NCBI GenBank assembly: GCA_001692895.1
Contig: KV748182.1
Coordinates: 3,476,341 to 3,540,340 of the forward strand
Source of the DNA: Cenococcum geophilum 1.58
Taxonomy: Eukaryota > Ascomycota > Dothideomycetes > Gloniales > Gloniaceae
Length of the DNA stretch: 64,000 bases
Direction: 5' to 3'
Shown: piece by piece, positions 17,147-50,998 of the stretch
How the letters are laid out: each line of letters begins with the position of its first letter
How positions within the stretch are numbered: position 1 is the first letter of the stretch
Translations under genes and position numbers: made by a program
Notes under the pieces: generated by a model
The model's database searches: none
Seen by the model: the letters and a program-made list of their open reading frames with translations, nothing else
Told to the model about the DNA's origin: nothing

Positions 17147-17159
17147 AAATAAAATAAAG

Positions 17160-17590
17160 ACTACGTATTAGGAAATAGAGGTTCCTTTATAGGCAAGGCG
17201 CGCTCACTTTTTTACCCTAGTTTGGCCAAGACCTAACCTCAACCTCGACCATAAAAGGCCTTCTCCCTCGCTACTTTTGCCCTTATACTCCATCTCCTCT
17301 TTTCTTTCCCGCTACCGTACTACCTTAGACTCTAGCTGTCAGCTATAAGGCATTTTCCATCCCCTTAGCGTCTATATAGGTGCTCTACCCCTTCCCTAAT
17401 CTCCGTATATTTCATACTAACGATTACCTAGCACTATAACTCTTTGGCCCTTTCTATAGGACACATTTATACTCTCTTCTAGTATTAACGTATGCTTTAG
17501 TCCTACCATATTCCTCCTTTCTTCCTTTCCTCTCTCCTCTCCTCCTACCTATATCTCCTACCGATTAGTGCACCAGAATAATATTTCCAT
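17160..17590 (+). other. pyrimidine-rich unassigned sequence near the 3' end of the element
   Basis: C/T-rich on the plus strand (for example TCCTTTCTTCCTTTCCTCTC near 17512-17540) with preserved CpA. No coding block recognised. It may be a promoter/leader for the degenerate frames that follow. Confidence 0.35.
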
Positions 17591-18640
17591 TCATCCTCTT
17601 CTTTACCTCTACCTCTAGCAGTATCTTAGATATAACTATAATATGCGACTTAATCCCTGTTAGAATAGATATAAATAGCTATACTAAGAACCGCCTAGTA
17701 ATGGATTATATAGGTTATAGCTGCTACAAGCTACGGGACGCGTTAAGTAGTGTTATATTATAGCATTATAATAAAGGCGAAGCTAGACGCCAAAGTAGGT
17801 CCTTAGCGAAACCATAGGTTAATGCTAGTTACTTAGCTTAGTTAAAGCTGCGCTACCGGAAGCTAGAAGCCCTTACCCTCCTTAGCGCCTTTTTAACCTA
17901 GACCTAAACCTTACTCTTCCCTAATAATTAGAGGATTGTATTACAATTAAAGAAGCCGCCGGGCTTTAGTCTAATCTAGCCCCCTATTTAGCTAAGGAGG
18001 TATAGGTTATACGGAAATATCCTTTATATAGACCTAAGACTTATAAGGCGGAATTTAGGGGTAAATAGCCTATCTAGTAGTATAGCCTGGCTTCTAGTAG
18101 AGCTAGTGTTATAATCTTACTCTTAGCTAACAAATACTAGAGAAAAATTCGCGTATTTAATCTTCTAACGGAGACGGACTTTATACGGTGGCTGTATTAG
18201 CTAAAAGGATATAGTAAGATAGATACAGGCGTAATCGCCTAATCTACTCGCGCTATCTGCCCCCTTATGTTATTTGTAACATCCAGTTATAGGTAAGGAT
18301 AAAAGTAAGGCTTTTGCATATATTTAAGAGGTTAAGTAGCGGCTACAGGCTTTATAGAGTGTGACTAAGGAAGTTCCTCGGATCTAGGGGAGAGATTTAA
18401 GGATACCCTTATTACTTAGAGTATCTTTTAATACTTATAGCAGAATCACGGCACGCCCCCTACTTATCTAATTTTAGGAACTATAGTTTCGCAAAAGATC
18501 TAGTATAAAAGATCTAGTTTGCTAGTATAATTGGGTTAAAAAACGGACATATTAGCGCTAGCTCTAACTCTAAGAAATAAGGGTAAAGGCACTTTACTAC
18601 TAACCTCCTTAATAAGGAGGCTTAGTATAATACCCCTATT
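17590..18640 (+). pseudogene. unidentified degenerate cargo gene, part 1
   Basis: A plus-strand frame from about 17640 to 18290 reads for about 200 codons with only RIP-type stops. Pieces are VKAALPEARSPYPP, LEDCITIKEAAGL, SNLAPYLAKEV, VIRKYPLYRPKTYKAEFRGK, SSRASVIILLLANKY and IRVFNLLTETDFIRWLY. A second stretch at 18400-18560 reads YYLEYLLILIAES and GLKNGHISASS. No family recognised. The length and consistency argue for a real former gene rather than chance. It sits at the 3' end of the Starship-like element. Confidence 0.45.
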
Positions 18641-20530
18641 AGAGGCTAAATGTACCAGCTTAGTTAGTTAGGTCTTAATTACAGTTTCCTAATAGGCGTT
18701 AATTTTATAATAGAGTTTAAGCCCGTATAAACCTTTATACATTATAAACAGTAATTGCTAATAGAGCGTAGATTACACGTTTTAATTCGCTATTAAGTTA
18801 ATAGGGTTATTTTGGTATAGATACTACGGATATAAGCTAGTGGCAAAGAGGGGACTAGCGTAGACTTAAAAGCCTAGCATAACTCGTCCTTTAGGGCTAT
18901 TAGAAAGGTATAAGGCAATAATAATTCTAATAACAATAGCGGTAATAACAGTGGCATCTTTTTAACCCCTCCGTTTTAATTCACAAATTTTACTTAATAA
19001 TATTAATTTCTATATTATACCCCCTAAAAAACCAAAGGCTTCTTAGCATTATATAATTACGGCTTCTAAGGCAAATATAAGCAACATACTTAAAAAAAGG
19101 ACGAAAAAGGGGAGAGTACCTTGCTTCCCTCTAAGAGATAATCCTATAAAATATTTAGCCTAATTATACTTAGGCAAGTTATTCTATATTACCTTTTTTA
19201 AACATTCTACTTAATAAGGCACCCGCAGATCCTAAGGCTTTTAATAAGTATAAAGATATTTATAAGAATATAAGTAACAGCTAAGACGCTAGAGAAAGTA
19301 ATTAAGGTAATTTAGTAATTATCCCCTCCTTTTCCTAATAACTATAAACATATCTAACGGGCAGTAGCGAATCTAATATTTATTGAAGATAATATAGCCG
19401 ACCTAGACTTAGAACCTAAAGCCGAAGGGGATAGAGCTAGCAATACTAATAATAAAGCTGATAAAGTTGGCGATTAACTAGCACCTCATAGGTTAGGTAT
19501 ATACTTCCCCCCTATATAATAGCCTTGCTTAATAATTATTAGGTAGCGGAAATGACCGCAGTAATAAGGATAATAAGGATAAGAAGTTACCTTCTTTAGA
19601 GAAGCTAGAAGATCTCTTTAGTATATCTATATATAACTATCTTAAACCTATAATAGAAGACGTTAATAAAATAGATAGCCTAGCTAAGGGAATTAATATT
19701 ATAATTATCCCCTAGGCTATACAGAAGTTAGAGACCCATATAGTGACTAACTAAAACTCCTTAATAGCCAATAATATAGATAATATTGGTAAGTTATAGA
19801 TATTAAAAATATCATTACTATAACCTAATAACTATAATATATAGACAATCCGCTTATTAGGGAGGGTAATTACAAGAAAGGGAATGCGGGAGGTAAATTA
19901 TCCTTTATACTAAAGAAGCGGAAGCTTAAGCGGGACGACGTTACTAATTATAATTCTAATAACCCTACTAAAGAGAGTAGCGGGGGTAGTAAGGGTAGTA
20001 ATAATCCACATCCCTAAAAGTAATAAAGGCTACCCACCTATCGCGAAGACTTATCTTCTAGCCCCCCTATACCTAACCTTAACTCTTAATACCTATAAGT
20101 TAACCAGCAAGCGGTATCCACTCTATAGCCTACTAGCCCTTCACTTTAGGAGCCTACCCTTCTCTATAGCTCTAAACCGCCGCATAATAAGGCTAATAAT
20201 TATACTTATAACGAGGATAAGGATAGTAACAGCGGTGGCGCTATTAATAACTAGAGCAACGTTTTAAACCTAGAGCCTACTATAAAGCGTTATACCTAGA
20301 CTAAAAAAGATAAAATTAATAAAGTGAGCTTAAATAATAAATAGGAGATTAATAATATTCTAGGGGAAAGAATAACTAAGTTAGGGCGCAAATATAAGGT
20401 GGCTTAGAAGCCTACCTAGGTTTATAAAAGCGGGCTTTTAAATTTTAAAGATGCCCTTAAGTCTTACTAAAGACGCGTTTAACAAGCTAAAGCTAGATCA
20501 TCATAGGTGCACTCTTTTTCTAAAGTTGCG
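18640..20530 (+). pseudogene. unidentified degenerate cargo gene(s), low-complexity acidic/Asn-rich
   Basis: Further plus-strand coding-like sequence in shifting frames. Readable parts include EDNIADLDLEPKAEGDRAS followed by Asn-rich sequence (about 19385-19460) and SGNDRSNKDNKDKKLPSLEK, LEDLFSISIYNYLKPIIEDV, NKIDSLAKGI (about 19540-19700). Composition (Asp, Glu, Asn, Ser, Lys) suggests a disordered nuclear or regulatory protein, but I cannot name one. Frame changes suggest introns or small indels. It could be one gene with the frame at 17590-18640. Confidence 0.35.
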
Positions 20531-21360
20531 GAAATAAAGGGCAGAGTTACTATATAGAAGGGACGGGGCTAGTAGCTTGGGCGTATTCTTATATTTTAGT
20601 TAATCCCGCGGAAATAGGAAGCTAGAGTTTGCATTTAGTGGTCCAATTATTTAAATACATTTTCTTAACGCGGTATTACTATATACAGCCGTTTTTATCC
20701 AAATTTTGTTACTAACTTATCTATATTATATATATCTAATTAAAACAGAACCTTATAAGTTGTGAGACCTATTATATTACTAGGCATTACAGTACCTATT
20801 CGTTTATATTACGAATCCTCTCTTTTACCATTAACACACTTAAAAGAATTCGTCAAATTATAAACTTCTCTATACTCAAGATATGCTAATTTACTAAAAT
20901 TACCGTTAAATATAAAAAGTACTAAAAGAGACTAAGATATTCCTTAAAGATAAATCGCATTATACTCTACCCTAGCGCTATTATATAAGGTAGGTAAGCG
21001 TGTCCTAACCTAATACCTATAACACAAAGTATAGCGTAGTTTAGGAGCTCACTAACAACTAAAGATTGTCTAGCATATCCTAAATAAAGGATAGTTAGTA
21101 TATTACACTATATAGAAGGATAGTAAGACTAATAAACTTATAAAGTATAAAACTTACCTTTATTAACGCCAATAACGCCTAAGAAATAGGTAAGGTATAA
21201 ATCTAGATAGAGAAGCCTTTAAATTTTTAAGCTAAAGATAAGATTTCGTAAACGTTAAAAGGAAAGCCTTAAGAGTATAGAGGAAATGCCGCGGCGCCGT
21301 TACTAGGGATAGATTCCGTAAACCTATGAATAAGTTTAGATAGTTAAAATTCCTAGTTTT
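20530..21360. other. unassigned AT-rich sequence
   Basis: No recognisable domain on either strand. Short frames only. It separates the plus-strand coding-like block from the minus-strand kinase gene and may contain the kinase 3' end. Confidence 0.4.
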
Positions 21361-21365
21361 ATAAA

Positions 21366-22110
21366 CATACCTTACTTATCCATTTCTTTAATAACGTTAT
21401 CTATATAGTTATATTTGCCGTTCTAATAGCCTCCAATAATAACTCTAAAGGCCCCTAGGGACTTTAATTTGGGAAATATTCCTTATTTATAACGATCTTC
21501 TATATCGTTATCGGAAAGCTCATAAAAGGCGATATAATATATTAAGATATAATAACAAGCCGATCTAAAGGCAAAAATTTCGTCCTTTTAAGGCGTACTT
21601 AGATACAAAGCTTAGGCTTAAATGGAGTATAAAGTAAGAAGAGGAGACCTATTAATCGATAAACCAGCGAAGTTAATTAGCTTTACGTTTAAATATTTAT
21701 CTAAAAGAATATTATAGTACAAAATATCACCGTATATAATATATCTAAAGTAAACATATTTAAAAACGTCCGTAAGCTATAAAATCTAACGTATTTATAA
21801 AATTTAATTAACGTTATTGCTTCTATCCTAAAGAAACCCGTAGAGCTAGCCGTTTAAAGCGCGTTCTAGACGTATCGCCATACGGTTATCCTTCTAGAAA
21901 AGTTCGCTGCTATAGTATTGTAAGAGTCTATTATATTAACTAAGTCTCTTATAAATCTCCTTTTTAACTTCGATAAAGCGTCAAGAATTCGCGTTATTTA
22001 GAGCTTTAATAACCTTATTTTAAAGTTCATCGCGATATATAGTGCCCGAAATTCCCTAGCCGATAAGATTTTCACAGCTGCAGCCAGGGGGTGGCACTAC
22101 GATGAGGTCT
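21366..22110 (-). pseudogene. protein kinase-like gene (degenerate)
   Basis: A eukaryotic protein kinase domain in one continuous minus-strand frame. Gly-rich loop GISGTIYRDEL (about 22030-22070), N-lobe EVKKEIYKRLS, RLLQYY (about 21910-21960), then the catalytic loop YGDILYYNILLDKYLNVKLI (HGDIxxxN type, His changed to Tyr), the metal-binding loop NFAGLSI (DFAG type, Asp to Asn), the FAFRSACYYI block (DIFALGSALYE equivalent) and a C-lobe ELSDNDIEDRYK, GIFPKLKSLGAF. The HGDIS and DFAG wording is that of a common fungal kinase-like family; its substrates are not known to me. Key residues are lost and about a dozen TAA/TAG interrupt it. Carried as cargo. Confidence 0.82.
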
Positions 22111-22159
22111 ATAAGTGTTAAAGTAGTAAAGGGCTTTAAAGAGGTGGAAAAATCCTAGT

Positions 22160-22805: not shown

Positions 22806-23260
22806 AGAGTAATTGCTATCGGTCGTGCAAACGCTTTCATTAAAGTTAGCGGCAAAAACTTAAAATCTCACCGCTATAGGGGCGGCTTTAAGAGTTGTAA
22901 GAGCGGCTATAAGAGTATCCTTAGGATTGGGAACCTCCCTAGGAAGATATAATATAGTAAGTAACAATAATATTAGCTCTAGAGGTCTGGACTTAGTGGT
23001 CTATTAATATATCAGCCGATAAAACGATAGTATACGCTATACTATATACATATCAAAGACCGGTTAAAGGTTAAGTATATTATACGTGGCTAATATCTTG
23101 CTAGAATAACAAGGGTATATATAGGTCTAAACCTAGTACGCCAAATATATTAAAAGGCGGCGTTAGCAACTTAATACGGATATATAGTTATATATAGCAA
23201 AGGTTAGTAAAAGGCTAACTATAATATAGTTTAACCCTAATTATTTAGAGGCAATGAAAA
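22806..23260. other. unassigned sequence
   Basis: No coding block recognised. Contains a short GGCGGCTTTAAGAG/AGCGGCTATAAGAG reiteration near 22880-22915. Confidence 0.35.
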
Positions 23261-23262
23261 TA

Positions 23263-23510
23263 TATATAGGCCTAAAATTAAAGGCGCTAATTAACCTAGA
23301 AAGCAAGAACGAAACACCAATTACCTATAAAAAAATTTATTAGTAGGCCATTATAGACACAGAGGCGTTCTAGTAGCTAAGCTAGTAAGCCCTAAAGTAC
23401 TAAATTATACTAATATCCTCCTAACTCTAAGCTAAGTAATAGGCTTAAGGTATAGGGCTATATATAGGGGCTTAGTTCCGGTGCTAGTTAATACACAGGA
23501 GCTAGCATAT
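23263..23510 (+). repeat. dispersed direct repeat, copy 1 (other copy 44335-44577)
   Basis: About 245 bp shared in the same orientation with 44335-44577 at roughly 85% identity by eye. Landmarks are CCTATAAAAAAATT, TAGTAGGCCATTATAG, CTAATATCCTC and GGGCTTAGTT. In plus frame both read ITYKKI followed by an Ala/Ile-rich stretch with stops at Gln sites, so it may be a piece of coding sequence. Differences are mostly transitions. Either a duplicated cargo segment or a short transposable element. Confidence 0.6.
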
Positions 23511-23514
23511 TTTA

Positions 23515-25660
23515 GATTGATAAGTAAGAGAGCGGGTAGTATTTAGGGCTTTCTTAAATTAGTAGTTTACCCTATAGATCGCGGCTTAGACTTTAAAATA
23601 TAAAAGTTTAACTATTTTAGAGGGGTAAAGCAAATGCGCTATACTCTAGCTCGTGCTTAGGTATATATTCCCCCAATTACCCTAGTTACCCATCTATAAT
23701 AAAACCTACAAATATTTAAACCGTCACTTATTAGGCTTTGTTGCATAACTAAAAGTGATTAGCCAAGTCGTAGAGCGCTAGCGTATCCCCGCTCCCAGCC
23801 CTTAAAAATTTAGTATACTTCTAGTATAAAAGTTTTATACAATAATAAGAGACTCCATATAAGGCCTTCCCTCCTAAAAATAAACAAAAACCATAGTCTG
23901 GTTTTATATAATAAGGCATAGAGCTAGAGACGCATTCAGTGGCTTTAATAGAGTGTATCTTAACCTTAGCCATATAAGGCAATTTCAGATAATACTATAT
24001 ACCTTTAAAGGAGGAGCCATATCTTAGCTGGGTTTTCCAAGGAAGTTTAAAGGTAGTAAAAGGCTTTAAGCTTTAATAAAGTCTATATATAGCTACTACC
24101 TAAAAAGAAAATTCCTCCTAAATAACTTAACAGTTCCTTATATATACCTCTCACAACCTTAGCTTTTCTATAGCCTCCCCCCTTAAGTCACCAAGCTCTA
24201 GCATTTAGGATATAAAGTCTCTCTACTCTTACTTAAGATATATGCGTTTAAGGCATAACTGAAGTATATAGCAATTATCTCCGAGGAAAACCTTATCCAG
24301 TAGGAAGTTATCTATAGCTTTAACCTTCTTAGGTAGAAAGACGTAATCCTACTATAGGCTATATACCTTAGATTAAAGGCCCTTATCTAGCGGGGGATTA
24401 TCTATAGCTTTAAAATTCTTAAATAGAAAGGTCTTACCTTCTCTCCGCGCTTTATAGGTTATATTAATAAAACAGCTAACGTAAATTTTAAAACTACTAA
24501 GCTAGTATTAGCCTAAAAAGTAACTAAGATAACTAAGAACTAACCTATTCCTCCCATGATTAGTTTTAGTATAGGAGAATTTAGGGTTTAATATTATAGC
24601 TTCCTCTAAGTTATCAGGGCTGATGGGTCGGTCAGGGTATTTAGGGTTTAAATATCTCCGTATAGCTTTCTCCGAGTCACTAAGGCTAATAGGTATATCA
24701 TAAAATATTGCGTTGTGCTATTGGTATTTGATATAAAGCGACTAAGCTTATAGCAAAACGACGGTAATATTTATAACACATTCCATAAGAGAGTGTCCCT
24801 ATTCCTGTTAGTAGAGGTCACTAGAGTGTTACTATAGTAGCTTACCGAAAGGAATAGATGTATATTAATAAATATAAAGTAAATGCTAGAATATAGTATA
24901 AGAATAACCGTAGCGCATAAGAGCTATAACACTTTTAACCTTCTATATTTTCTTACTATCTAGGTAGAAGCAGTAAGAGTTACACCTAATAATATATTTA
25001 CTAAGAGACTATCTAAGAAAGCTAACGAACGCCCTATTATCTAGTGTTGTGGGAAGAATACTAATACAAAGCCGGAAATTAGGAGTAAAAAGGCAAGTAT
25101 AGTAATACCGGTAACGACTGGGAAATCCTTATTAAAAATAGTTTTTAAAATATTTATATAGAATCTCCATAAGAATAAAGCCTAATTTTTAGTTAGTAAT
25201 TTACTTTAAGAGGCTGCACGTATAAACCTTAATAGCTAGTCTAGTATACTAGGACAGCTCTAATAATATATATAACAACTTAGCTAAAATAGAAGAGATG
25301 TTTTTAAGCTAGTAATAAAGGGAGACTCCAAAAATAGTTTAGAGAGGGAGGAAGTAAAAAATTATTTAAAAGCAAAAAGAATGCCGTAAGGTAGTTAATA
25401 AACAAAGCTATAAAAGCACTACTTAACTAAGAATAAGTAAACAAATAAACTTAGCGCTAATAAATACTATAATAGGAAGTTTATACATTATTTTAAAAAG
25501 CAGGGGTATCCTACTAATAAAGAGATTAACCAAAGTAAAAAAGGGCAAAAAGGCAACAAGGCGATAAGGTAATAGCGCGATAGGGTAGCAAGATAACAAG
25601 GCGGCTGCAAGGCTAAGTTATAGCCTAATTCCCTCTAACCACCTTTATAGAATATTATGC
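23515..25660 (-). other. 2.1 kb of mostly unassigned, probably formerly coding sequence
   Basis: A minus-strand frame at about 24230-23840 reads LYILNARAW, KAKVVRGIYKELLSYLGG and LENPAKIWLLL with RIP-type stops; no family recognised. A short tandem duplication of about 95 bp stands at 24291-24350 and 24381-24450 (shared TTATCTATAGCTTTAA and GTAGAAAG/ATAGAAAG). The remainder to 25660 is purine-rich on the plus strand and shows no domain. Confidence 0.35.
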
Positions 25661-35461: not shown

Positions 35462-35890
35462 ATAGGGCATTAGTTCCCGTAGGGGAGAGAAAAACGTGGC
35501 TGTAGGCTCCCATAGGGGAGTAAAAGCTATATAGAAGTGCAAGCCGCAAGGGATTAGTTCCCGTAGGGCGGTAGAATATATAGGCATTAGCACCTATAGG
35601 GGATTCGTTAGAGTAAGGGATTTATTAGCGTAGGGGATTTATTAGAGTAGGGGATTTATTAGAGCAGGGGATTTATTAGTATAGGGGATTTATTAAAGTA
35701 GGGGATTTGTTAACGTGGGGGATTTATTAGTATAGGGGATTTGTTGAAGTAGGGGACTAAATCCCGTAGGGGATTTATTAGAGTAGGGGACTAATTCCCA
35801 TAGGGCGGCGAAATATGTGGGCAATCGCTCCTATAGGGGATTTGTTTAAGTAGGGGACTTATTTAAGTAGGGGATTGGTTAGAAGATGGG
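35462..35890 (+). repeat. 17-bp minisatellite (GTAGGGGATTTATTAGA) with higher-order structure
   Basis: Between about 35600 and 35880 some 14 units of 17 bp repeat GTAGGGGATTTATTAGA with single-base variants. A longer module, (A/G)TTAGTTCCCGTAGGGCGG followed by AATAT and then CACCTATAGGGGA, occurs at 35552-35604 and again, varied, at 35786-35838. So the array has a higher-order repeat. The period is not a multiple of three, so it is unlikely to be coding. Confidence 0.88.
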
Positions 35891-36180
35891 ATTAATTCTC
35901 TTATAGCCTCTATTTAGGCGGTATAAAGCGGCTTCTAATAGGCTAGAGAGTAGATTACGCGCTTTATAAAAAAATAAAGCCTATATGGGATAATAGGGTA
36001 TAGGGACCTAATAATCTAGCGGAAGATTAGGTTATCCACTCTTCCGAGTTTTATTTAGCCCAGGCAACTCGCCCAACGCTATTTTATATGCGTTTTAATT
36101 AAGGCTACTACCTAGCCTTAGCCGCCCAAATCTCTACAAAACTTTAACTTATGCGGTAGAAGAATATAGGATAATAAAAT
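35891..36180. other. unassigned spacer, 3' flank of the FunK1 gene
   Basis: No domain recognised. Likely terminator region of the minus-strand kinase gene. Confidence 0.35.
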
Positions 36181-36181
36181 A

Positions 36182-38098
36182 TTATTCTATCTACTCTGCT
36201 AATACTTCTAGATCCTTCTATACTTGCTAGAGAATCTCTTTTATCTAAAAATAAAGCGCCCTATCTTCCTTCTCCCACTTTCTATCTATTAGGAAAACTA
36301 CCTTCTACACCTTATTAACCCATAGGACTAGCGGCTAGTAGTAAGGTGTAAATGCCTTAGCTATATAGTTAAGAAAATGCCCTTTCCTATTTACTAGCCC
36401 CAATTTTAACTTAGCTAACTTAGTGGTATTCTTATAGTTCTAACACTTAAACTTAGTTGGACCGATATCTTTACCTAGCCTATTATAGTATACGCATATC
36501 CAGAAAAGCACCTAAAAGAACAACTCCAAATTATACCTAAAGGAGTGTTTCTCGCCTAGAAGCACTCCTATAGCCATAAACGCTTTTATACTGGTCTTAC
36601 CCTATACTCCTAAAGGTCCTTCTCGCTTCTCTTTAATCGCGAGATTGAGATCAATTAAGAATAACTTCTAGAAGGGATTATCGTCTTCCTTATTTATTAA
36701 GAGGTTGCCTATTAAAATGTCACGTTAGAGGATGCTAGCCTACGTATATAAAGACTTATATCCTTTAATGCCACCCTTTAGCGTAGTAAGTATTGTAGCT
36801 AGAGAGCTTGCCTTATAAAGAGCCTTTTTATAGTCGTAAGTAATAACGCGTTAATGCACCTAATTCTATATAATAGGGCGCTTAATTAGAGAGCTTAAAT
36901 ATGGGTGCTTATTAGGCGGTAATAGGGCGTTAGTATAGCTAGACGACCTCTTTTTACTAGTGCTTTAGCCTTTCCTTATACTACCTTACACTTTAGCTAC
37001 GCTTAGAGGTACTATTAAGCTTTTAGGCTTATAGTTTATCGCTTTAGTAATATCCAGCCCTTTATAGATATTAAAGATATCATTATCTTATCCACCTATA
37101 TAAATAGTCCTATAGTAATAGTACCTGGCTACGTTAATTACTCCTTTCTCCGCTGCTTTACGTAGCAGTTCACCTTCTTCCTTACGCTCTAGGTACTGCT
37201 ATAAGTCTTTAATAACGAGAGGTATCTTAGAGGTATTACCCTCATAGTGCGCTTTCTAGTAAATTATCGCCTAACCGGCAATGCAGGGTGCCCGCTTTAT
37301 GAGTTTATTAAAAATAAGATGTTTAGTCTAATCGTTACGCACGACCTCAATATATCATTTGCCGTTTAATATCAAAATAGTAGGGTTAAACCCGAGCTGC
37401 TCTTTATTTATTAAAAGAAACCCTAATATCGCCAAGGTAAATTATAGTCCGTCTTTATTAATATTAAATAGTAATAATGCAATGCCTTTTACCCAGTTAT
37501 ACTTCTATAGCCGTATAATAGATCTATAGAGGGTAAAACCTAAGATAAAGCGACAATTATCCTAAGCGGCGAAGACTTCCCTTATATATTTCCCTAAAGC
37601 AAACCATACCTACAAGGCTATATTAGTGTTTAGATTACTCTTTAGCTCTCCTAGTATAAGTATATATAACTAATAGCATTAAGAGCCTTTACTAGCTATT
37701 AGATTATCTATAAAACTAATATCTAGCTTTCGCTTCGCCGTAGACCCTTATAAGGGCTGCTCAGTATATATAATAAGCTTTTATTATATCTTTAGGGCAG
37801 ACCTATACTCCTCTATAAAGCCTAAAAATAATTTAATTAGGTTATTAAACTACTCTAGGATATTATCTTACTCTGCGCTTTTAGGCCAGTTACGCCAGCC
37901 GCCCTTATTAGCGTATAGTAGATTATCCCCTTCCTTACATTTCTTAAAAACGGCGGCGCTTGCCTCTTTAAGACCTTCTACTCCCCTAAAGAATGCTTTA
38001 TATAAGCTAGGAATCCCCACGTAAAGAGGGCCTAGCTCCTCCTTTAAAATATCATCTATATATTTCCTATATTTAGACGAGTTAGCGAAGCTACTTAT
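36182..38098 (-). pseudogene. FunK1 fungal-type protein kinase (degenerate)
   Basis: A near full-length FunK1 kinase of about 639 codons on the minus strand. N-terminal region: SSFANSSKYRKYIDDILK, AAVFKKCKEGDNLLYANKGG, GSTAKRKLDISFIDN. Middle: DINKDGL-type block, LGFLLINKEQLGFNPTI, KAHYEGNTSKIPLVIKDL, EGELLRKAAEKGVINVARYY. Then KRSSS linker and kinase C-lobe: RDILIGNLLINKEDDNPF (catalytic loop HRDISxNN, His lost to a stop codon), LFLIDLNLAIKEKREGP (DLDLA metal site, Asp to Asn), KAFMAIGVLLGEKHSFRYNL, VLFWICVYYN, GKDIGPTKF, FTPYY and IDRKWEKEDRALY. The start reads ATA AGT AGC, apparently ATG changed to ATA. Roughly 30 RIP-type stops. FunK1 kinases are expanded in many fungi, with roles largely unknown. 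Confidence 0.93.
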
Positions 38099-39240
38099 GT
38101 TATATAGATATGGGGTTTAAACGTGGAATAGTAGCGGTTGGGGGGGAGGCGTAGGCTCTGTAATGGTGGCGATAGTTTTACTCTAAACGTCCTTATCTAA
38201 TTTATAATTAAGAACTGTTTTTAGGAGAGGGGTAAACTGTTTAATATTAAAGTTATTAGAATTAACCAAAGGGAGGAATTAAAGAAGGTTACTATAAAGA
38301 GTACCGCGGCTAGCGCTAGACGGGAGTAGTTAAGTAGTAGAAAGGTTTTATAATATTAGAACAAGGTTAATAATAAGATTCTTAAGCCCTATATATGTTA
38401 GACGGGACCTATAGTAGACTAATTAACAATTACCTTTATTGCCTATTTAGTGTAATAAGTTTAAAGAGCTAAAGATGCCTAGATTCTAATAAGTTAAGTT
38501 AAATAAATCGCAAAAGTTATTTAGTCCTTCCCTAATAGGTTTCGTTTTAATTATCTCTAATTTAAAGAGATTCGCTATTATAGGCAAACGCAATAAAAGC
38601 TATATTAGGGTGGCCGGCGTAGTAGGCAAATAGGTAGGCAAAAAGGGGAGATTAAAGAGGCTAGTATATAACGGACGATATAATAGTAGAGAATTAAATA
38701 AGTATAAGAAGGTCAAGAACACGTCGGTAGTGTCTTATAATAAGAAAATAACCAGGGAAAAAAGTATAAGGAAGGAAGTAAGGTGTGAGTAAACACACAA
38801 AGGATTAAAGATTAGGTATAGAAAAGTTAAGCTAATTTAATATGGCTTAAACCGAGGCTTTATAGGGCTTAGTTAAATACTAAGCTATAATAACCTAAAG
38901 TGTAGGAAATATTATTTATAGTCCTAGTTATATAGGTTAAAAATATAGTGCGTATATAGGGTTCTGGTATTATTAGAAAGTTATAGGCAGCATTTATTAG
39001 TAATTATAGTTATTAGCTTTTAGTTTGTTCCGCGATATATAAGGCTTAAATAGAGTAAGGCTCTAATATAGCAATACTAAAAGGCGCTAGGTAAGGTACA
39101 GCTAGCAATAGCGGGTTAATTATTGGGTTGGTTATATAAGCACCTATAATTAATTACATAGCTAGTCCTAAAATAAGCTAAACCTAATATACCAAATACA
39201 GATATAGCCAACCCTATTTCACAGCGCGTAATCAACCTAT
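38099..39240. other. upstream region of FunK1 and unassigned sequence
   Basis: Immediately upstream the minus strand has a Pro-rich readable piece (EPTPPPPTATIPR, about 38115-38165), which may be a further N-terminal extension. Beyond that no domain is recognised on either strand. Confidence 0.35.
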
Positions 39241-39929: not shown

Positions 39930-41516
39930 TCTTTGGCTTCTTAGAGGCTCTATCTATAGTGCAATCTACCTTTCTTTTATATGTCCCTCTCATTAATAGA
40001 TCTTCTAAATAATTATCTAGCGCCTCTTCTAGTTGGTCTCTTTGCTTATATAATTTACCCCTTTAAGCTATCTCTATTATAATATCTTTAAGCGGTTTAT
40101 ATATCCTAGTATAACAATAGAGGTAACGCGGGTTCTTAGTATAGTATAATATAAGTCTCTTATGCGGTATACCCGTAGGTAAAACCCAGGTAGGATATTA
40201 GGATATTATTACAATAGGACTATATATAGATACAACTAATCTATATTTAGGGTTTCGGAGACACTTTAAGTCCTTTATTATATAGCAAGTTGGCAACCAT
40301 AATAAGAGATACTTTAGTTATCTGTCTGAAATTATAGCATCAGAAATTATTAATACTTTAGTTAGGGGAGGTATATCTCTAAGGAAGTTTATAGGATTAG
40401 CTAAACTATTCTCTACTTAATTATTAGTATTATTAAATAATATATAGGTGTTTTATAAACATACCTAGAGGTATTAGCAAACCTTTAATATAAACCTCTT
40501 TTAGTTAAGGTAAGTCTATTTTAGCCTCGCTATAGCTCTCTATTAGCTTAGGTAAGACTATTTTAGTTTCACTACGGCCTTCTAGGCTCTTAAGGTAATT
40601 GGCGTATATTTCCGTATCCTCTTATATATTACCCTTTATATTATCATCAATTTTATAAGAGTTAACCTCCTTAATTATATAAGCAGGTATAGAGAGTATC
40701 TACTACTGTCCTAGTTAATCTCCTTGCTTATACAGTTTACCCTTCTTAGCTATCTCAATTATAATATCTTTAAGCGGTTTATATATCTTAGCATAACGGC
40801 AAAGGTGATAAGGATTCTTAGTATAGTATAATAAAAGTTTCTTTTACGGTATAGCCACCGCTAAAACCTAGGTAGGATACCAGTATATTACTACAATAGG
40901 ACCATATAAAGATATAATTCCTTTATAACCGGGGTTTCGGAGATATATTATGTCCTTTATTATATAATAAGTAGGTAACCAGGATATAAGATACTTTACT
41001 TATCTACTTAAGATCTTAGCATCGGAAATTATTAACACTTTAGATGGATATATAGGGACTAAACCATTCTCTGCTTAATTATTAGTATTGTTAAATAATA
41101 TAGGTGTTTTACAAATATACCTCTAGGTACCGGCGAAATATATTTAGAACCTATAACTGTATTTATCTACTAGGATAAGCCTTTAACATAGTTCTCTTTC
41201 GGTTAAGGCGAGTCTATCTTAGCCTCGCTATAGTCCTTTATTAGCTTAGGTAAGTCTATCTTAGTTTCACCGCCTTCCAATCCCCTAAAATAATTAAGGT
41301 ATATTTTTTGTACACCTCCCTAAACCATATCCTCTTATATATCGCCTTTCGTATTATTGTTGCTTTCATAAAAATTAGCCTTATTAGGTATTTAAGCAGG
41401 CGTATAAGGCATCTGTTTCTGCATAGGGTTAGAAAGCTACAATTATTTCTCCTCCCCGCTACCAAATGCCGTGTCTTTATCGTTAATGCGATTTTAGAAT
41501 AATTTAAGGTTTCCAA
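39930..41516 (-). pseudogene. unidentified degenerate gene with an internal tandem duplication of about 690 bp
   Basis: Two direct copies of about 690 bp, roughly 40020-40710 and 40711-41400, share ATATCTTTAAGCGGTTTATA, GTTTCGGAGA, TCCTTTATTATATA and TTAATTATTAGTATT. On the minus strand both read as protein: copy 2 gives LPTYYIIKDIIYLRNPGYKG, YGPIVVIYWYPT, LLYYTKNPYHLCRYAKIYKP and LKDIIIEIAKKGKLYK; copy 1 gives LPTCYIIKDLKCLRNPKY, LYYTKNPRYLYCYTRIYKP and ends with LEEALDNYLEDLLMRGTYKR then a Lys-rich tail. Upstream a piece GGETKIDLPKLIKDYSEAK is also repeated. The gene thus had two repeated domains or two tandem paralogues. Family not recognised. Confidence 0.6.
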
Positions 41517-42460: not shown

Positions 42461-42462
42461 TG

Positions 42463-42740: not shown

Positions 42741-43330
42741 AAAGAAGATTTCTAATAAAAGCTGGTAAAAGGGTTAAAACTTTGGCCTCTTTTTATTTAG
42801 CCTATTACGAAACAAAACAATATTTTACTATTCCTACTAGAGTCTTTGCCTACTTAACTTATAGCGAGCTATAAAGCATTTATAATAATCTATACTTTCA
42901 CTTAGATAAATTTATTTACTACCTTAAAAGCGATAATAGTAGGTAAATCTATGCTAACGACCTAGGATTTTTTGAATTTCTTATAGACCTAGGACGCATA
43001 CCACCTTAGCAACTATTAGTCGTGTTTAAGACTACAGTACTTATAGATTTATATCTTAAGGATATAAATATATTTTTTTATAGTGTTTTCTTTTTGTTTA
43101 AATCATTTCTCTACTTATAGTATATAGCGGTTATTTATCTATTCCAGTGTAGTAGGAAGAGGTAGTTAGGTTACGCGAAAGGGCTTAAACTTATAGCTAC
43201 GTTTATAGGGCTGTTTATATAGAAACTTCTCTAAGTATATATAAGGGGTCTTTATATAGGAACTTCTTCAATATTTTTAGATCTGGGACTTATATATTTC
43301 TTTTTTTTATAGTTTTAGTATCTTCCTAAT
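42741..43330. other. unassigned sequence
   Basis: AT-rich, no domain recognised. A short duplication GAAACTTCTCTAAGTATAT/GGAACTTCTTCAATAT lies at 43220-43275. Confidence 0.35.
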
Positions 43331-43336
43331 ATCTGC

Positions 43337-43688
43337 TTCCTATTTATATGCTAGGCGTTAATAGAGGGCGCTAGGTTAAATCACCCTGCTTATATGATTA
43401 CCCTACTCACACAATCGCCTAGCTTACACGATTACCTAGTTCGCACGATCGCCCAGCTTATATAATTACCTAACTCGTAGGATTGCCCAGCTCCTACAAG
43501 CACTATGCTCGCACGGTCACCTAGCTCGCACAATTACCTAGCTCATAGGATTGGCCAGCTCTTACGAGTATTTAGCTCGCACGATTACCTAGCTCATATA
43601 ATTACTTAGTTTATACAATTACCCAGCTTATAGGATCGCCTAGCTTACCCATTAATATCCTATTTATACGCTAGGCGTTAATTAGAGG
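43337..43688 (+). repeat. second 17-bp minisatellite (CGCACGATTACCTAGCT) with flanking direct repeats
   Basis: Fifteen consecutive 17-bp units from about 43402 to 43656, for example CGCACGATTACCTAGCT, CATAGGATTGGCCAGCT and CGTAGGATTGCCCAGCT. The array is bracketed by direct repeats of about 30 bp: CCTATTTATATGCTAGGCGT with TAATAGAGG (43337-43367) and CCTATTTATACGCTAGGCGT with TAATTAGAGG (43659-43688). The same period as the array at 35.6-35.9 kb, but a different sequence. Confidence 0.9.
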
Positions 43689-44330
43689 ACAAACAAAAGT
43701 TATATTATATATTCAGTTATAACGGGGGAGATAATCTATTAAGCACTGTTGTGCTATTACTAAGTTATATCCAGGAGCTTCTTAAGGCCTATAGTATATC
43801 TAAATTTTATGTCTTAATGTCTCCTATCCTTTCTATAATATTTTCTTGGTAAGCATCTCTTATTAAGTCTTACCCCAATCAAGGTTAAGTAGTATCTCCT
43901 TTAAATATTAAACTTTCTCCAGATTATTATAAGCGTTACAGTAATTAATAAGGTTTTGGAAAGCCTTATCTTCTTCATTGTCTATTATTAACCTATAGTC
44001 TTTAAAATAAGAGTAAATAATATCGCGTTATCTTTTAAATTCCTTCTTTCAGTCGTCACTAATTTTACTCTATTTTAGCGTTAGAAGCTAGATTAGCTGC
44101 AATATATAAAGCTATAAAAACTTATATATAAAGACTAGTAATCATTTTATATATTATACACGGAACACATTGCTGGGGATACGATTTTGTGGATATTAGA
44201 AACGCTAAAAAAGTATTCTTAGAGCCGAGTATATAACTATCTTTAATTGACCGTATACTGTATCCTCAACCTTAACTCAAACAAATTAAAAGACTAAAAA
44301 TGTTAAAGAGCAAAGAGATTTATACAAAAG
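43689..44330 (-). pseudogene. unidentified degenerate frame
   Basis: At about 44060-43740 the minus strand reads RLIIDNEEDKAFQNLINYC, NAYNNLEKV, YLKEILLNLDWGKT, EMLTKKIL, ETLRHKI and then EAPGYNLVIA. Consistent frame with RIP-type stops, about 120 codons, family not recognised. Confidence 0.4.
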
Positions 44331-44334
44331 TATA

Positions 44335-44577
44335 CGTAGGTCTAAAATTAGGGGCGTTAAATAACCTAAAAAACGAGAACAAAACGCTAATTACCTATAA
44401 AAAAATTCATTAGTAGGCCATTATAGGCATAAAGGCGTTTGGATAGCTAAGCTGGTAAGCACTAGAGTGCTAGATCATACTAATATCCTCTTAACCCTAA
44501 GTTAAGTAATAGGCTTAAAGTATAGGGCTATATGCCGGGGCTTAGTTTCGGTCCTAGTTATATATAGGAGCTAGATG
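44335..44577 (+). repeat. dispersed direct repeat, copy 2 (other copy 23263-23510)
   Basis: Matches 23263-23510 in the same orientation; this copy keeps a GCCGGGGC patch where copy 1 has ATAGGGGC. The two copies are 21 kb apart within the Starship-like element. Confidence 0.6.
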
Positions 44578-45055
44578 TACGTCTTATATTAACAAATAGG
44601 AGGGAGTTAAGTTATAAGGCATATGCCATTTTGTCTACAACGCGTCTTACAGCCTATATATTAATTGCCGGTTTATATCATTTATATAGTATACGAGATA
44701 GGTGCTATAGGGTATATAGCAGCGAAACAAGGCATATTGTCTACGTATATACCTTAGCTATAACCGTATATGTTAACATTAGGGATTAATATAAACGTTT
44801 TCTATCTAGCTCCTTATCTCCCTATTAACCCTTTAAAAGCCTAATCTCTTTAATAACATCTAGTATAAATGAGCCTCCTTAAGTAAGAAGACTTGGAAGT
44901 AGGGGCGCTGCTAAAGTTAATATATAAACTACTTAGAAAACTAAAACAACCTTTCTAAGCAATACCCCTCCACTCTTACGTTTTGCAGGGCCTATAACAT
45001 ATAAGTTACCGGTCTGTATCTCTTATAGGATTATATTACTTAGTTAATACCTAGG
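44578..45055. other. unassigned sequence
   Basis: No domain recognised. Confidence 0.35.
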
Positions 45056-45059
45056 GTTA

Positions 45060-45540
45060 ATCAGTTGATTCGCTTGCTTCCTCTTTAGACGCTACATTTA
45101 ATAAAGCTAAAACTTAAGTTAGTATAAGTGTTCTAACCATAATACAACAAAACTAATAATAGGCTTTCCTAACGGCTTGTGTTATACGCTAATTAAGGAC
45201 TTTAGTAGCTACCTGGGGTATACTCTTAGCCGCTAGCAGCTCGTTTAAACGCTCTAGAAGCTCCTCCTATTTATTTATAGGAACCTTAAACTAAGTAAAG
45301 CGTATTAGATATAATAAGCGAAGTTATTTAGCTTCTTCCTATATAAGTGTTTACCAATCTTTATTACTAAGAGTTAAGGCTATACTTATATCCCTGCTTA
45401 CCAGGAACCGCTTTTATTAAGTTTTAAAATATCCGGCAACAGCCTATATATTACTAGCTTTGGATTTAGCGGTAAGACTTATTATACGTGGTGGCGTTAA
45501 AATAAGAAGTTGGTATTGCTGCGCGGAGTGCCGTTTATTA
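45060..45540 (-). pseudogene. unidentified degenerate cargo gene
   Basis: Minus-strand frame of about 160 codons ending in a TAA near 45060: LTPPRIISLTAKSKASNI, AVAGYFKT, RFLVSRDISIALTLSNKDW, LRLLYLIRFT, FKVPINK, EELLERLNELLAAKSIP, VATKVLN, VRKAYY, FCCIMVRTLILT and VLALLNVASKEEASESTD. Helical, with a leucine-rich central heptad-like region. No family recognised. Confidence 0.45.
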
Positions 45541-45552
45541 AGGTAGGGCTAT

Positions 45553-45622
45553 CAACCACATTAACTCTATTAACCCTATTAACCCTATTAACTATATTAA
45601 CTATATTAACTACGTTAACCTA
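45553..45622 (+). repeat. 9-bp tandem repeat (ATTAACCCT)
   Basis: Eight units of ATTAACTCT, ATTAACCCT, ATTAACTAT and GTTAACCTA. Just upstream of the minus-strand frame at 45060-45540. Unit length and sequence do not match the fungal telomere repeat. Confidence 0.85.
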
Positions 45623-46655
45623 ATCAACCGCTAGCAATATAAAACCGGCTAACGCTACTAGTCTTTGCTTCCGCCTTCTCCTAATATAGCTAATAAAATC
45701 ATAGATATGACAATAGGTCGGCCTACATAACAATACTATATTAGTGCCTCTCCAGATGCGCTGACCCCGCGTTTACCTCTATTTACCAGTTCTCTTTACG
45801 TTTTAATAGGCTTATTCTATAGGTAGCTCTACATCGCTCTCTTCATCGCAAGCCTATAACAATTACCCTGTTTTATCGTAAGATACTAGCCTCCTCAATA
45901 TCGCGTCCCTAAAGAGTCGAATTAATTACTTAAACTGGATAGATAGGAGATTTCTAAAATAAGTCAATACGAGCCTTAATTAAGGTTCCATACTATAAAA
46001 GCCTTTCCTACTAGGAACTAATCGGATTCTTCCCTATATTCCTTAGAGAATTAACTTAATCCTAAATCTAAGTAGGTGCTTTAATATTGCTTTGCTAATA
46101 GCTAACCATATTAAGCCTAGGTTCCGTTTACTATTGCGAAATTTAGGGCTTACTAGCAGAGTTATAAGGCCTATAGGCTGACTAGGCTAAAATACAGTTA
46201 CCTTTTTTCCTTTACCGCAATGCACGCTCCTCTACCTATAGCCGCCGCGTACGTTTATATAGTGTTTATTTATTACCTTATAATTTTCCGTACTTTTACT
46301 AGATATAGATAGTGGGGTTTTTCTAGTTATATAACTGGCTTTATCCGGGTAAAGAAGTAGCAGAAAATGCTTAGTATATATATAAGCTAAATATTAACCT
46401 ATAACTTTAGAAGTTATATTAGTCCTTAGTTAAGCGACTAATGTTTAAAGCTCTAACTAATTAACTAAATCCGTTGCAGATTAGATAAAGCTAATAATAA
46501 CTTCTTAATGTATATATAGAGGCTCTAAAGCCACGTTTAATAAAGCAGAGTTCTTATTCTTAATTATCCTATTTAACACTAAATTATACTTTTAAATATT
46601 GCTTAAGACGTAGTTAAAACTAGAACTAGGAAAGAAAACCAACGAAATATATTAT
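45623..46655. other. unassigned sequence, partly coding-like
   Basis: A plus-strand frame at about 46100-46390 reads ILSLGSVYYCEI, LPFFLYRNARSSTYSRRVRL and LYNWLYPGKEVAENA but I cannot name a family. It is in the upstream region of the BTB gene. Confidence 0.3.
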
Positions 46656-46659
46656 TTAA

Positions 46660-47807
46660 AAATGTTCTGCTTAGCTTAGCGCAGCTTATAAATAGCGAGA
46701 AATATAACAACTTAAAACTTATATACTAGGGGCTAGAGTTTAAAGTCTATAAAGCGATTATATACACCCAATCTCCTATACTTATAGCTGCCTATAATGG
46801 AGGTTTTTAGGTAAAAGCCAACTAAATATCTAGTGGAATTAACCCTAACCAGAAACTCACTAACGGGTAAAAGGCGGTGACTAATATTATAAATATTAAC
46901 AAGTTTAATTCCGGCACCGTTAAAAGAATAATCCAATTTATATATAAAAGGGACTATAACAATAGCGAGGAGGAGCAAGGATCCAATATTATAAGTGTAG
47001 AAAAGCTTAGCTAAGGTGAGGGATATATTCATACGTTAATCTAATTTATCCGTACTTAAGCTTTAATCTATAGAATTAGAGATAGCGCAACTTAACGACG
47101 CTAATGCCTTATCGCTATCTAAACTAGACAGTAGCGGTGGCGATAATAAAGATATAACAATACGGCCGATAACGGCCTATATTACACTTCGCCACATCCA
47201 TATTAATGCAATTGCCGATTATTACGATATACTATAGCTAAAAGAGCTTACGAATATAAAAATCTAATATATTCTAGGAACCGGCTAGTCTGTAAATAGG
47301 TTTCCTAATATTATTAAGGATGTCTTTAGCCTAATAGGCAACTTAGTATTGCATAATATAATTACCTTAATAGCAGCCGAGCATATTAAAGAGCTTATTA
47401 AACTTAAGGACTTTATAGAGCTAGACGTTATAAGCGATTTCGCTATCAGCATTATACGGATAATAATTACCGCATCTAAGGATATGGAGGAAAATTTTAT
47501 ATAGAAACTTTAAGCTGTCTAATCCCAGCTATAATAAATAAAATCACTACTTTAATCCGCCGAGGCAAGGTGCGCTGTGGCTAAGCGTAAAAGCAAAAAC
47601 ATTAATAACTGTCTTAATACCCTCTGCATAACTAGGACCTGTTATAATATCGGTTATAAAGCCGAGTTTACATATTATATTAAGGAGAGCAGTTATCTAT
47701 CCGACCCTAATTACCTTTATATACTTCGTTATAAAAGGTGCAAGCGTTATATATAAGTAAAGATATATAGCTTAGGAGATCGGCTTAGGTAGGAAGTTAT
47801 TATATAA
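46660..47807 (+). pseudogene. BTB/POZ-domain protein (degenerate)
   Basis: BTB domains mediate dimerisation and often recruit cullin-3 ligases; many fungal genes carry only a BTB domain. Plus strand: LLSLA, NSEKYNNLKLIY, GLEFKVYKAIIYT, SPILIAAYNGGF (B1-A2 core, about 46670-46810), then after about 65 bp NINKFNSGTVKRIIQFIYKR, DYNNSEEE, followed by PITAYITLRHIHINAIADYY, DIL, LKELTNIKI, FPNIIKDVFSL and AAEHIKELIKLKDFIELDVI. A coiled-coil-like segment with QSQLQ-type spacing and a Cys-rich tail (CAVAKRKSKNINNCLNTLC, then CYN) end the protein. The 65 bp gap begins GTAAAAG, contains CACTAACGG and ends AAAAG, a plausible intron. Stops are RIP-type. Confidence 0.82.
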
Positions 47808-47929
47808 TACTTCTCTTTCTTTCTCCGTTCGGGTTGATCTAAGAAATTCGAATGCATATCTCGTCTATAGTCGGTCCGTCAGATATTATATAGCAACTAT
47901 ATTATTCATCTCCTATTAGCCTCCCCTCC

Positions 47930-48056
47930 CCTTATTCCTTACCCCTTACCCCTTACCCCTTACCCCTTACCCCTTACCCCTTACCCCTTACCCCACCCTT
48001 TATCTTATCCTTTACCTTACCCTTACCCTTACCTTACCTATTACCCCTCGCCCCCC
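47930..48056 (+). repeat. TTACCCC tandem repeat and C-rich tract
   Basis: Eight perfect TTACCCC units at about 47941-47998, then imperfect CTTACC units and a run of C to 48056. It lies between the BTB gene and the recombinase gene. The strand with GGGGTAA is not the TTAGGG telomere motif. Confidence 0.9.
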
Positions 48057-48184
48057 TAGACGAATTACAAAATCCTAGTCATTATATCTATTCTACTAAA
48101 TACTGGAATAGGATTGGATAATAACAAACTAAAATGAAATAAAAAGTGGTAAAGAATAATAAGATAAGCGTGTAATAACTAGGA
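48057..48184. other. spacer downstream of the recombinase gene
   Basis: Presumed 3' untranslated region of the minus-strand recombinase; no terminator motif could be assigned. Confidence 0.4.
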
Positions 48185-50640
48185 AAAGGTCCTATATATA
48201 CTAAGCGCATAATTCTAAAAATGCATTTTATGCTTAAGGGTCACTTCGCAAACATTGCATTTAATCTTACCCTACTATAGGAGTTTAGAGAGATGCGCTT
48301 GTCGGAAATACTTTATAAGAGTAGTTAGAGTATAGAACCTATATATACGCTTGCTAATTAGTAGCTTTTAGTTCCCAAGGTAGATAAAGCATATCTTTAG
48401 TCTTTTCTCCTTAAATAAGGATAACTTTACACTTTTTAGCGCTTTAGCTGCTTCTAAAATCTTAATATCTTCTTTAATCTTAACTTAGCTAAGGGCGACA
48501 CCTACCCTAAACTGTCTCTAGTAATGACTTAGCTAATACACTCTACCTTCCTTAATATTGCAGTAATCTATAACTATATTAATGGCATTATTACATCTAC
48601 GTATTTTATCTTCTAGTAATATACTAGGTAGCGTTATAATCACTTTAATAAGGCGTTTATATTCGGCTAATTTATCATTATTAGATTCTAAGGTTGCTTT
48701 AATATCCTCGCTAAATATAACTCCGGAAAGTTGCCGCTTAATATTAATTATAGCTTATTCGTTATTTTAATTCTTCTTAATATTTTCCAATAGCGCATTT
48801 CTCTAACGTTGCCTTTTATTTGTAATTTCTCGGCTAAGCTTTTAGTATTCTGTACTTTCTATAGTTTTGCGCTTAAGGCTAAGCTTTAGCTTATTTCGAA
48901 CTTCGATTAAGGAATAAATATATAGGTTTTTATTTACTAATAAGGATTGTTCTATTATTAGGTGCTATAGCCGCTATAGGTTAATTAATTGGCTTATTCG
49001 GCATACTGCTTTTATTAACTTTTCTTAAGGCTTTAAGCCTTAAACAATTGCTTGTGTATCTACATCAACACGCCGCAAAAGGTAGTGCTTTAGGAACGTT
49101 TAAGCGTCGGCGTGCTACATTATCAGGTTTTGGAGGGCGTTACTTACATTACCTAGGTAGTATAGGCGTTAGAAAGGTTTTAGTAGAACTAGCTCTATAT
49201 AATAAAACTTACTATTTTTATTAAATACCTTACCTACGCCGTAACGGAGACTATATAGGCGCGCAACCTGCTAAAATCCCATAATTACGCTAAGGTCCTT
49301 AATCTAGGGCAAAAGAGTTAAGTATAATAAAGGCTAGTCAAGTAAGACCTTGTGGCCGTAGGGGGTTTTAATTAATCACCAAAATATAGGGATATTATCT
49401 AGGTCTAAACGGAGTGGTAGTAGCAACTTATTACGCCTAGGCTTAATATATAGCTTACTAAGCTACTCTACGGACATTAGATTAGGGGCCGTAAAAGCTT
49501 TATTTATAAAAAGAAGGCCTAGGAGAAAGATATAAGGGCTAAGAATAAGTAAAGGGTTAAAGATAATCTTAGGAATTGGGAAAGTATTACTAGTTCTCTA
49601 TAAGCGTAAGGAGAGGAATAGGGTAGAAAGGGAATATACGCTTCTTTTATGCTAAGATATTCCTTAGTAAATTTAAATATAAACTTAGGCACAATCTTAT
49701 AAGGCCCGCCTTCTAAGTCGCGAATAAGTGTAATTATTATATGTCGGTAGCATAGGTTTAGAAGAGCTTTAGGTTAGCTTATAGTATAAAGACCCAGTTA
49801 TATTAAGAAATGCACTTATATCTAATGTCGTCCAACTATATATTGCTTCCTTATTGTGACTAAGTTAGTCTTAAGAACTAGGGCGAGATCCTCCGCGTCT
49901 ATAACAGTCTTTTTTCACTTTTTCTCGCTTAAACTATATTTCTCCGCTAGTTTTTAAAGTACTTAAAAAAGATATCTTAGCTCTGCCTTACCTTACTAGG
50001 TTAAAGGATTAACTAGGAATATAATTACCTTATGCATCTGGCGGTTTAGTTTGCTAGTAATTTTCCCTTTAGTCGCTCTCTTATATATAAGGCAATAGTA
50101 CTTCTAGTATAGGCTAAGCGAGCTAGAAACCTTTATCCTATACTATTTCCTACTACCTTTCCCTCGTTTCTAGTTTAGGGACTAGTTAAAGAAGCTATAA
50201 AGGAGCCAAAGCGAGAGGACTTAGTATGTTTTCTTGGGGTCTTTCCCTATATAGGTGCAGTATCTAGAAATTATTAGCTCTCTGCTAAGTTAGGCCTAAA
50301 AAGAAGCCGCTAAATAGGTTATTACTTACTAATGCTAGTGTTCTTTAATGCGGTTAAGGAGAGCTATAGTGGCATTGGCGTAGTCCTATATTATAAAATT
50401 AGATTTCTTAAACTCTTTTAACTATTTAAGGTAATATTCTAGTAGATAGTCTTAATCCTTATAAAGCCATGCTTAAGCAGACGCTTTATAAGTATTTTTA
50501 GATTTAGTAGTACTATTAGTATTACTATTAAGGACGGTTAGTTCTGTCCGGTAGCTATTACCATCGCTATCTATATTTATATACTTATTGTTAGTAACGC
50601 TAGATAATAAGCTATAATTTAATAATTAAGTGCGCCGCAT
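48185..50640 (-). pseudogene. DUF3435 tyrosine recombinase, candidate Starship captain (degenerate), copy 2
   Basis: Full-length relic, about 800 codons, from the ATG at 50640. N-terminal blocks: WLYKD, LLEYYLK, LKEFKKSNFI, LLNRIKEH, SRYCTYIGKDPKKTY, YRIKVSSSLSLY, KYYCLIYKRATKGKITSKLN. Middle with LVLKTNLVTIRK region, then the catalytic part LYSLRYGVGKVFNKN (conserved Arg, about 49213-49250), NALQNLIM, HADA, FLKHYLLRRVDVDTQAIV, GLKP (His and Tyr region, about 49040-49150). C-terminal: NKLKLSLKRKTIESTEY, QLSGVIFSEDIKATLESNND, CNIKEGRVY, ICFIYLGN and a C2H2-type finger IKCNVCEVTLKHKMH (about 48200-48260). Family DUF3435 (PF11917) provides the captains of Starships. It lies 358 bp inside the element edge and points inward. 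Inactive: many RIP-type stops. Confidence 0.88.
49153..49212 (-). other. fossil spliceosomal intron in the recombinase gene
   Basis: Sixty bases with GTAAGT at the 5' side, a CTAAC branch-type motif 21 bases before the end, and CTAG at the 3' side. Removing it joins GVGKVFNKN to SNVSNALQNL in frame, restoring the spacing between the Arg and His/Tyr motifs. The intron splits an Asn/Ser codon region (phase 1). Confidence 0.8.
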
Positions 50641-50998
50641 TTTAGGGAGCTAGAAGAGAACTTAGGGTAGTGACAGCGGAAAGGATATAGAGAGTAATGT
50701 GGGGTTAAGAAAATGGGAGGGTAAAGAATAAGAGAAACGGGGCCTAGGTTAAATGGATTAGAGGTAAAAGCTATAGAGTATATATAGGTTCAGCGTCAGG
50801 CGCGTAGAAGGGTCATACTTCTAAATAAACTAGTTTACCTATAAAAAACGGGGCACAGGCTAAGTAAGTAAGAGGCTTAACGTTAGACCGGCAAGTAAGA
50901 GGCTTAGGGCGGCGGGGAGTTTTAGTAACGCGACCTCTAAAAACGGCGACAGAACCCTCTAAAAACAGCAGTTAGATCTCTATTTTCTTTTTTAATGG
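50641..50998 (-). promoter_or_regulatory. 5' leader and terminus of the Starship-like element
   Basis: About 358 bp between the recombinase ATG and the element edge, conserved in copy 1 (588-933). It contains GGCGACAGAACCCTC and GGCGGCGGGG patches and TATATATA at 50777-50784. Conservation in both copies makes it the likely promoter and recombination end. Confidence 0.6.

Follow-up and report, generated by a model that had tools for sequence, protein, structure and literature searches.

What fills the gap between the two halves of a retrotransposon integrase gene in Cenococcum geophilum 1.58, and how did it come to be there? The sequence studied, here called the window, is a 64,000-nucleotide (nt) stretch of assembly GCA_001692895.1 (KV748182.1, positions 3,476,341-3,540,340, forward strand). 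It is AT-rich, and the signs of repeat-induced point mutation (RIP) are strong: in 2-kb steps, TpA/ApT is 1.48-2.11 and (CpA+TpG)/(ApC+GpT) is 0.22-0.74. The gap very probably holds a decayed, or fossil, Starship, 33.85 kb long and headed by a DUF3435 tyrosine recombinase, the captain; the direct repeat at its two edges has 6 bp and contains a TTAC core. Because the element interrupts the integrase gene of gypsy D, an older retrotransposon, its ends and landing site are legible almost to the base. The features that carry this reading are as follows.

17147..50998, read on the minus strand with its captain end at the right: Starship-like element of 33,852 bp, delimited by the in-frame gypsy join and, at the right edge, also by a second copy
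17141..17146: direct repeat at the distal edge, AGTAAA (TTTACT on the minus strand)
50999..51004: direct repeat at the captain edge, AGTAAA (TTTACT), with a core, GTAA/TTAC, common to the second copy
50999..52795, minus strand: gypsy D, end of the reverse transcriptase (RT), RNase H, integrase H2C2 and core
16544..17146, minus strand: gypsy D, integrase C-terminus, SH3_Tf2-1 and chromodomain-like end
48182..50640, minus strand: captain, DUF3435 tyrosine recombinase, decayed, recognised by PF11917, homologues and tblastn pieces

An earlier note on this DNA had reported AGTAAA at both edges, and the hexamer does stand at 17141-17146 and 50999-51004. By itself it is common in the window, with 50 occurrences on the plus strand and 66 on the minus strand. 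When 200,000 pairs of cut points were drawn at random from the same window, about 0.41% had a repeat of at least 6 bp at their edges, and about 0.0145% had one containing TTAC or GTAA. When the flanks are fused with a single AGTAAA, one minus-strand frame leads from RT-RNase H via the integrase into SH3 and on to a tail that resembles a chromodomain. Pfam finds RNase H, integrase H2C2, and SH3_Tf2-1 in the correct order, the last with a score of 29.3 for the fused read (cut-off 30) and 30.9 for the C-terminal piece alone. No Pfam match to the integrase core or the chromodomain was reported in the fused read, and the chromodomain is visible in the homologue alignment only. Among PDB chains, Ty3 Gag-Pol matches the fused read too, and the matching part crosses the junction.

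The fused protein has nine homologues at E 0.001 (8000 candidates scored), and the junction alignment comprises seven of the nine, P0006 and P0007 being left out. In all seven of these uninterrupted relatives the junction column is gapless. The four close ones (P0001-P0004, 45-50% identity, 46-50% when counted in this alignment) are gapless for tens of residues on either side, and P0005, P0008, and P0009 have gaps about 8 residues upstream. The two integrase halves join seamlessly and in frame with one TTTACT, as had been proposed. Nor do they belong to different gypsy subfamilies or overlap each other, which the earlier note had named as a danger to its reading; once fused, they match one and the same relative on both sides of the junction, with nothing missing or doubled there.

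The captain is the first gene at the right end of the element and reads inward. Its Met codon at 50640 lies 358 bp inside 50998, just where it had been claimed to begin, and the first homologous residue is 421 bp inside. PF11917 matches in two frames, with E=2.8e-69 and 6e-14; of the 418 profile positions, one of these frames covers 2-95 and the other 212-418 (the best of two stretches there). Homology to P0010 runs from 50577 down to 48182 on the minus strand (tblastn). The homologue search scored only the 7999 candidates sharing most words and returned 20 at E 0.001, all 20 with PF11917, the best being from Coniosporium apollinis (46%). The listed relatives that are named by organism, Coniosporium, Alternaria, Pyrenophora, and Histoplasma among them, are filamentous ascomycetes. 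The C-terminal recombinase blocks keep the conserved Arg, His, and Tyr (YSLRY and HADA-TFLKHY, with 9 of the 20 homologues aligned), which we take to be catalytic. An earlier Arg is, by eye, a stop in the fossil, at a place where seven of the eight covering relatives have NRP and P0015 has NQP. Stops occupy 23 of 313 codons in 49639-50577 and 23 of 472 codons in 48182-49597, introns included. By eye, the frame change is compatible with a 50-nt intron (GTATAT...CTAG), after which the fossil reads KEANTFPIPK and P0010 KDANTFPIPE, and an extra 20-residue stretch is compatible with a 60-nt intron (GTAAGT...CTAAC...CTAG). If both stretches are introns, the captain decayed there by stops and not by insertions or deletions. 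Just downstream of the captain, at 47928-48045, stand tandem units of CCCCTTA type, telomere-like in look; the usual telomere unit is CCCTAA.

The right edge can also be read from a related element at the other end of the window.

1..938, minus strand: captain end of another, related element that is less RIPped and whose body leaves the window leftward

This stretch is homologous to 50121-51003, and the homology breaks at the same GTAA/TTAC. Stepwise identity is 0.81-0.88 as far as base 938, then 0.53 over 40 bases and 0.40-0.43 further on. The shared part ends GAGTAA in both copies, while the outermost A at 51004 is a T in the second copy. The shared terminus thus fixes the right boundary without recourse to the gypsy, and it makes GTAA (TTAC) the core common to the two insertions. 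An independent copy with another boundary was a further danger raised beforehand; at the captain end, this one stops at the same base. Transitions make up 125 of the 146 differences between the two captain-end copies. With the left copy taken as the start, C-to-T changes are found at 24/37 CpA versus 6/57 CpT, and G-to-A changes at 14/20 TpG versus 6/84 ApG, and GC is 0.443 in the left copy versus 0.369 in the right. The left copy is much less RIPped than the right one; the element and the gypsy are both RIP-mutated. Further along, past this second captain end, 3607-4188 (minus strand) has a weak reverse transcriptase match (E 0.00068, under the cut-off).

Inside the element, the cargo consists of one clear gene and one doubtful one.

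36000..38320, minus strand: cargo, fungal protein kinase PF17667, decayed
21663..22067, minus strand: weak protein-kinase-like stretch, E 0.00056, below the Pfam cut-off

The PF17667 match, which we take to be of the FunK1 type, has E=3e-75 over 36500-37687. The best homologue is 62% identical over 92% of the read-through of 36000-38320, a figure drawn from the best 120 of the 752 homologues that passed among 8000 scored candidates. Two separate kinases were rejected in favor of a single one that spans the border between two scan sets, and a kinase-motif scan gave three matches, none within the kinase identified later. Beyond the kinases, no Pfam family was placed inside 17147-48300 in six frames at E 0.5, a scan limited by the HMMER filters, which discard most matches above about 0.1, and none at E 1 within 43300-48250. 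The claim that the gap is filled by non-retroelement DNA is supported within the scope covered. Nine gypsy proteins gave no tblastn match inside the element, one right-flank match overrunning the edge by 18 bases, and no Pfam reverse transcriptase was placed inside by scans that covered six frames of 17147-48300 and the minus strand of 48185-50642. An RVT_1 trace from the interior scan (E 0.18) was rejected as internal since it maps near 3607-4188, outside the element, as were hAT and DUF659 traces, which are placed in a second insertion in gypsy D. The interior also holds minisatellites of 17-bp period (35463-35918 and 43380-43645) and diverged direct duplications (23257-23547 with 44327-44619, 80%; 40014-40708 with 40697-41421, 70%).

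How well does this anatomy agree with known Starships? In the published model, the captain excises the element and inserts it at a target, and direct repeats result (PMC12506042, PMC12134995); the anatomy here fits that model. The DUF3435 captain would have excised the 33.85-kb element from an earlier location, presumably by way of a circle, and site-specific recombination at the TTAC core would then have placed it in a chromovirus-type gypsy, within the integrase gene, with one TTTACT left at either edge. RIP has disabled captain, cargo, and gypsy alike. At 33,852 bp and with a cargo kinase, the element lies within the size range of Starships (about 15-700 kb with cargo). It resembles Starships such as Nebuchadnezzar, of the Hephaestus family in Aspergillus fumigatus, in its inward captain at the 5' end, its short direct repeat, and its size, which falls within about 20-700 kb (PMC12153272). 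According to the same paper, short flanking direct repeats of 2-12 bp occur in 19 of 20 A. fumigatus elements, and terminal inverted repeats in 18 of 20. Read by eye on the minus strand, the empty site here has the sequence TTAC TAATTAA A and is compatible with the Hephaestus motif TTAC(N7)A (PMC12153272). Past TTAC the fit adds one base (A), likely by chance in AT-rich DNA. Unlike Nebuchadnezzar-type Starships, the element here is decayed, its terminal inverted repeat is marginal, and the usual accessory genes were not found in the scan of 17147-48300.

Like the RIPped Starship of Gaeumannomyces tritici type A (PMC11905480), the element is gene-poor and heavily RIPped; unlike there, the host locus is a retrotransposon protein gene, from which the empty site can be fixed with no need of a second strain. 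Sanctuary too has a 6-bp direct repeat, although its repeat is ATWHCT and not TTTACT, and Horizon has a DUF3435 captain at its 5' end; both are larger (170-196 kb and 143 kb, respectively) and were compared across strains (PMC12506042, PMC9594970). Starships inside other transposons and AT-rich DNA, as well as RIPped Starships, have already been published (PMC12134995, PMC11905480). What is new here is another Starship of the published sort, with edges unusually sharp for a fossil. The earlier note held that a precise empty-site sequence is uncommon for fossil Starships, which is plausible; no survey stating so was found. Calling with starfish requires a resolved empty site, and elements lacking one go unannotated (PMC12153272). 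Since a split, well-conserved host protein can substitute for a second genome, fossil Starships could be delimited in single assemblies. Among the literature-search matches, no paper has "Starship" and "FunK1" together in the text that was available.

Several results weigh against a Starship. The terminal inverted repeats are marginal: the candidate is an A-rich match of 17-18 bp, and its score is reached by 66 of 2000 shuffles and by 98 of 2000 60-mers taken at random from the interior. The distal end has no second copy within the window; the gypsy join is the one line of evidence that places that edge. DUF3723, ferric reductase, patatin, HET, and NACHT domains, which published work names among Starship cargo, were not reported at E<=0.5 in six frames of 17147-48300. 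DUF3723, ferric reductase, patatin, and NACHT genes are frequent in Starships but do not define them; RIP alone may not explain the blanks, since the captain and the kinase were easily found. Instead, the captain could be a solo recombinase or part of a smaller element, with the 33.85 kb that fills the gypsy gap made up of independent insertions heaped together or of rearranged DNA. Most of the 31 kb past the captain is without a recognised domain, duplications are present inside the element, the second copy confirms the captain end only, and solo DUF3435 genes are common (PMC12134995). Such a history is nonetheless improbable: apart from the 6-bp repeat, the two gypsy edges fit together without loss or gain of a residue, and the TTAC core stands on both edges. 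Later insertions within the element are possible and would not affect its outer ends.

The contig itself could be at fault, for repeats and AT-rich DNA are difficult to assemble, and the assembly has a single N at 15638. However, a misjoin is unlikely to yield a 6-bp repeat that contains a TTAC core, flanks that join in frame beyond the insert, and a terminus that recurs at window 1-938, and we give this explanation hardly any weight. A Crypton, or another tyrosine-recombinase element that is not a Starship, deserves mention because Starship mobilisation has been likened to that supposed for Cryptons (PMC12134995) and Horizon was initially taken as a crypton (PMC9594970). With PF11917 matched towards both ends of its profile, a size of 33.85 kb, and a cargo kinase inside, that identity is highly improbable here. 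We know of no small Crypton with a PF11917-type match, such a size, or a cargo kinase. A RIP-killed Starship, as first suggested, is supported by PF11917, the seamless junction, and the second captain-end copy.

If a Starship landed at TTAC, where did the TTAC come from? The fossil has Phe-Thr (TTT ACT) at the junction, where all four close relatives (P0001-P0004) have Phe-Ala, so TTTACT was probably derived from TTTGCT by RIP. The second residue is Ala also in P0005 and Leu in P0008 and P0009. At the 25 positions where Ala is fixed in all four close relatives, G-to-A change is seen in 10 of 13 codons preceded by T and in 1 of 12 elsewhere (preceding bases were split by hand; the 10/13 includes the junction codon and becomes 9/12 without it), which makes TTTGCT to TTTACT the expected RIP change. 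A single CpA-to-TpA change on the plus strand would convert the inferred TTTGCT to TTTACT and so create the TTAC core, which was probably absent from the intact gypsy. That RIP acted before the insertion and so created the landing site of the Starship is a serious possibility, if one that we lean slightly against. Alternatively, the element either entered TTTGCT or carried TTAC in with it, after which RIP altered both sides; at the 9/12 rate, the chance of parallel post-insertion RIP on both repeats is about 0.56 (9/12 squared).

The density of CpA/TpG is 22-28 per kb in the gypsy parts versus 46 per kb in the element, which fits an earlier or heavier RIP history of the gypsy without proving it. 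TTAC/GTAA occurs 10.7-18.0 times per kb across the three parts of the gypsy, 12.6 times in the element, and 7.5 times in the second copy, which is lightly RIPped. Its density does not set the gypsy apart, the element being no poorer than one gypsy part, and base composition accounts for part of these differences. In a partial literature search, we recognised no publication, as far as its available text goes, that claims a RIP-made Starship target. If such targets exist, RIPped repeats would be a self-renewing supply of them, which would help explain how often Starships lie in other transposons and AT-rich DNA. The locus thereby poses a testable question of order: does RIP of a retrotransposon precede and create the captain's TTAC site?

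The host gypsy was itself interrupted twice, by the Starship-like element and by a 5.35-kb insertion, judging from the order of its pieces relative to P0001.

58147..59350, minus strand: gypsy D, upstream part, P0001 residues 1-116 and 143-427
52796..58145: separate insertion, not part of the Starship, with the 13-bp ATTTCTTAATATT at 52783-52795 and 58146-58158

By tblastn, P0001 residues 420-1028 lie at 52807-50981 (50%), and the C-terminal part lies at 17146-16544, with P0002 as its best match (47%). All the pieces are on one strand (minus), in order, and of similar identity. The 5.35-kb insertion has weak traces of a hAT dimerisation domain (E 0.0048) and DUF659 (E 0.15) in one frame; hAT elements are usually flanked by an 8-bp repeat, shorter than the 13 bp here. 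An inverted repeat (6739-7057 with 56653-56947, 76%) ties this insertion to another site in the window. Outside both gypsy protein ends, 15890-16017 and 60688-60815 form a 128-bp direct repeat, 91% identical. These could be pieces of the gypsy D long terminal repeats, an interpretation left unused, as no target-site duplication was visible by eye. Further decayed gypsy stretches are seen by tblastn at 8060-9171, 10867-11959, and 14539-15839 on the minus strand and at 62906-63997 on the plus strand.

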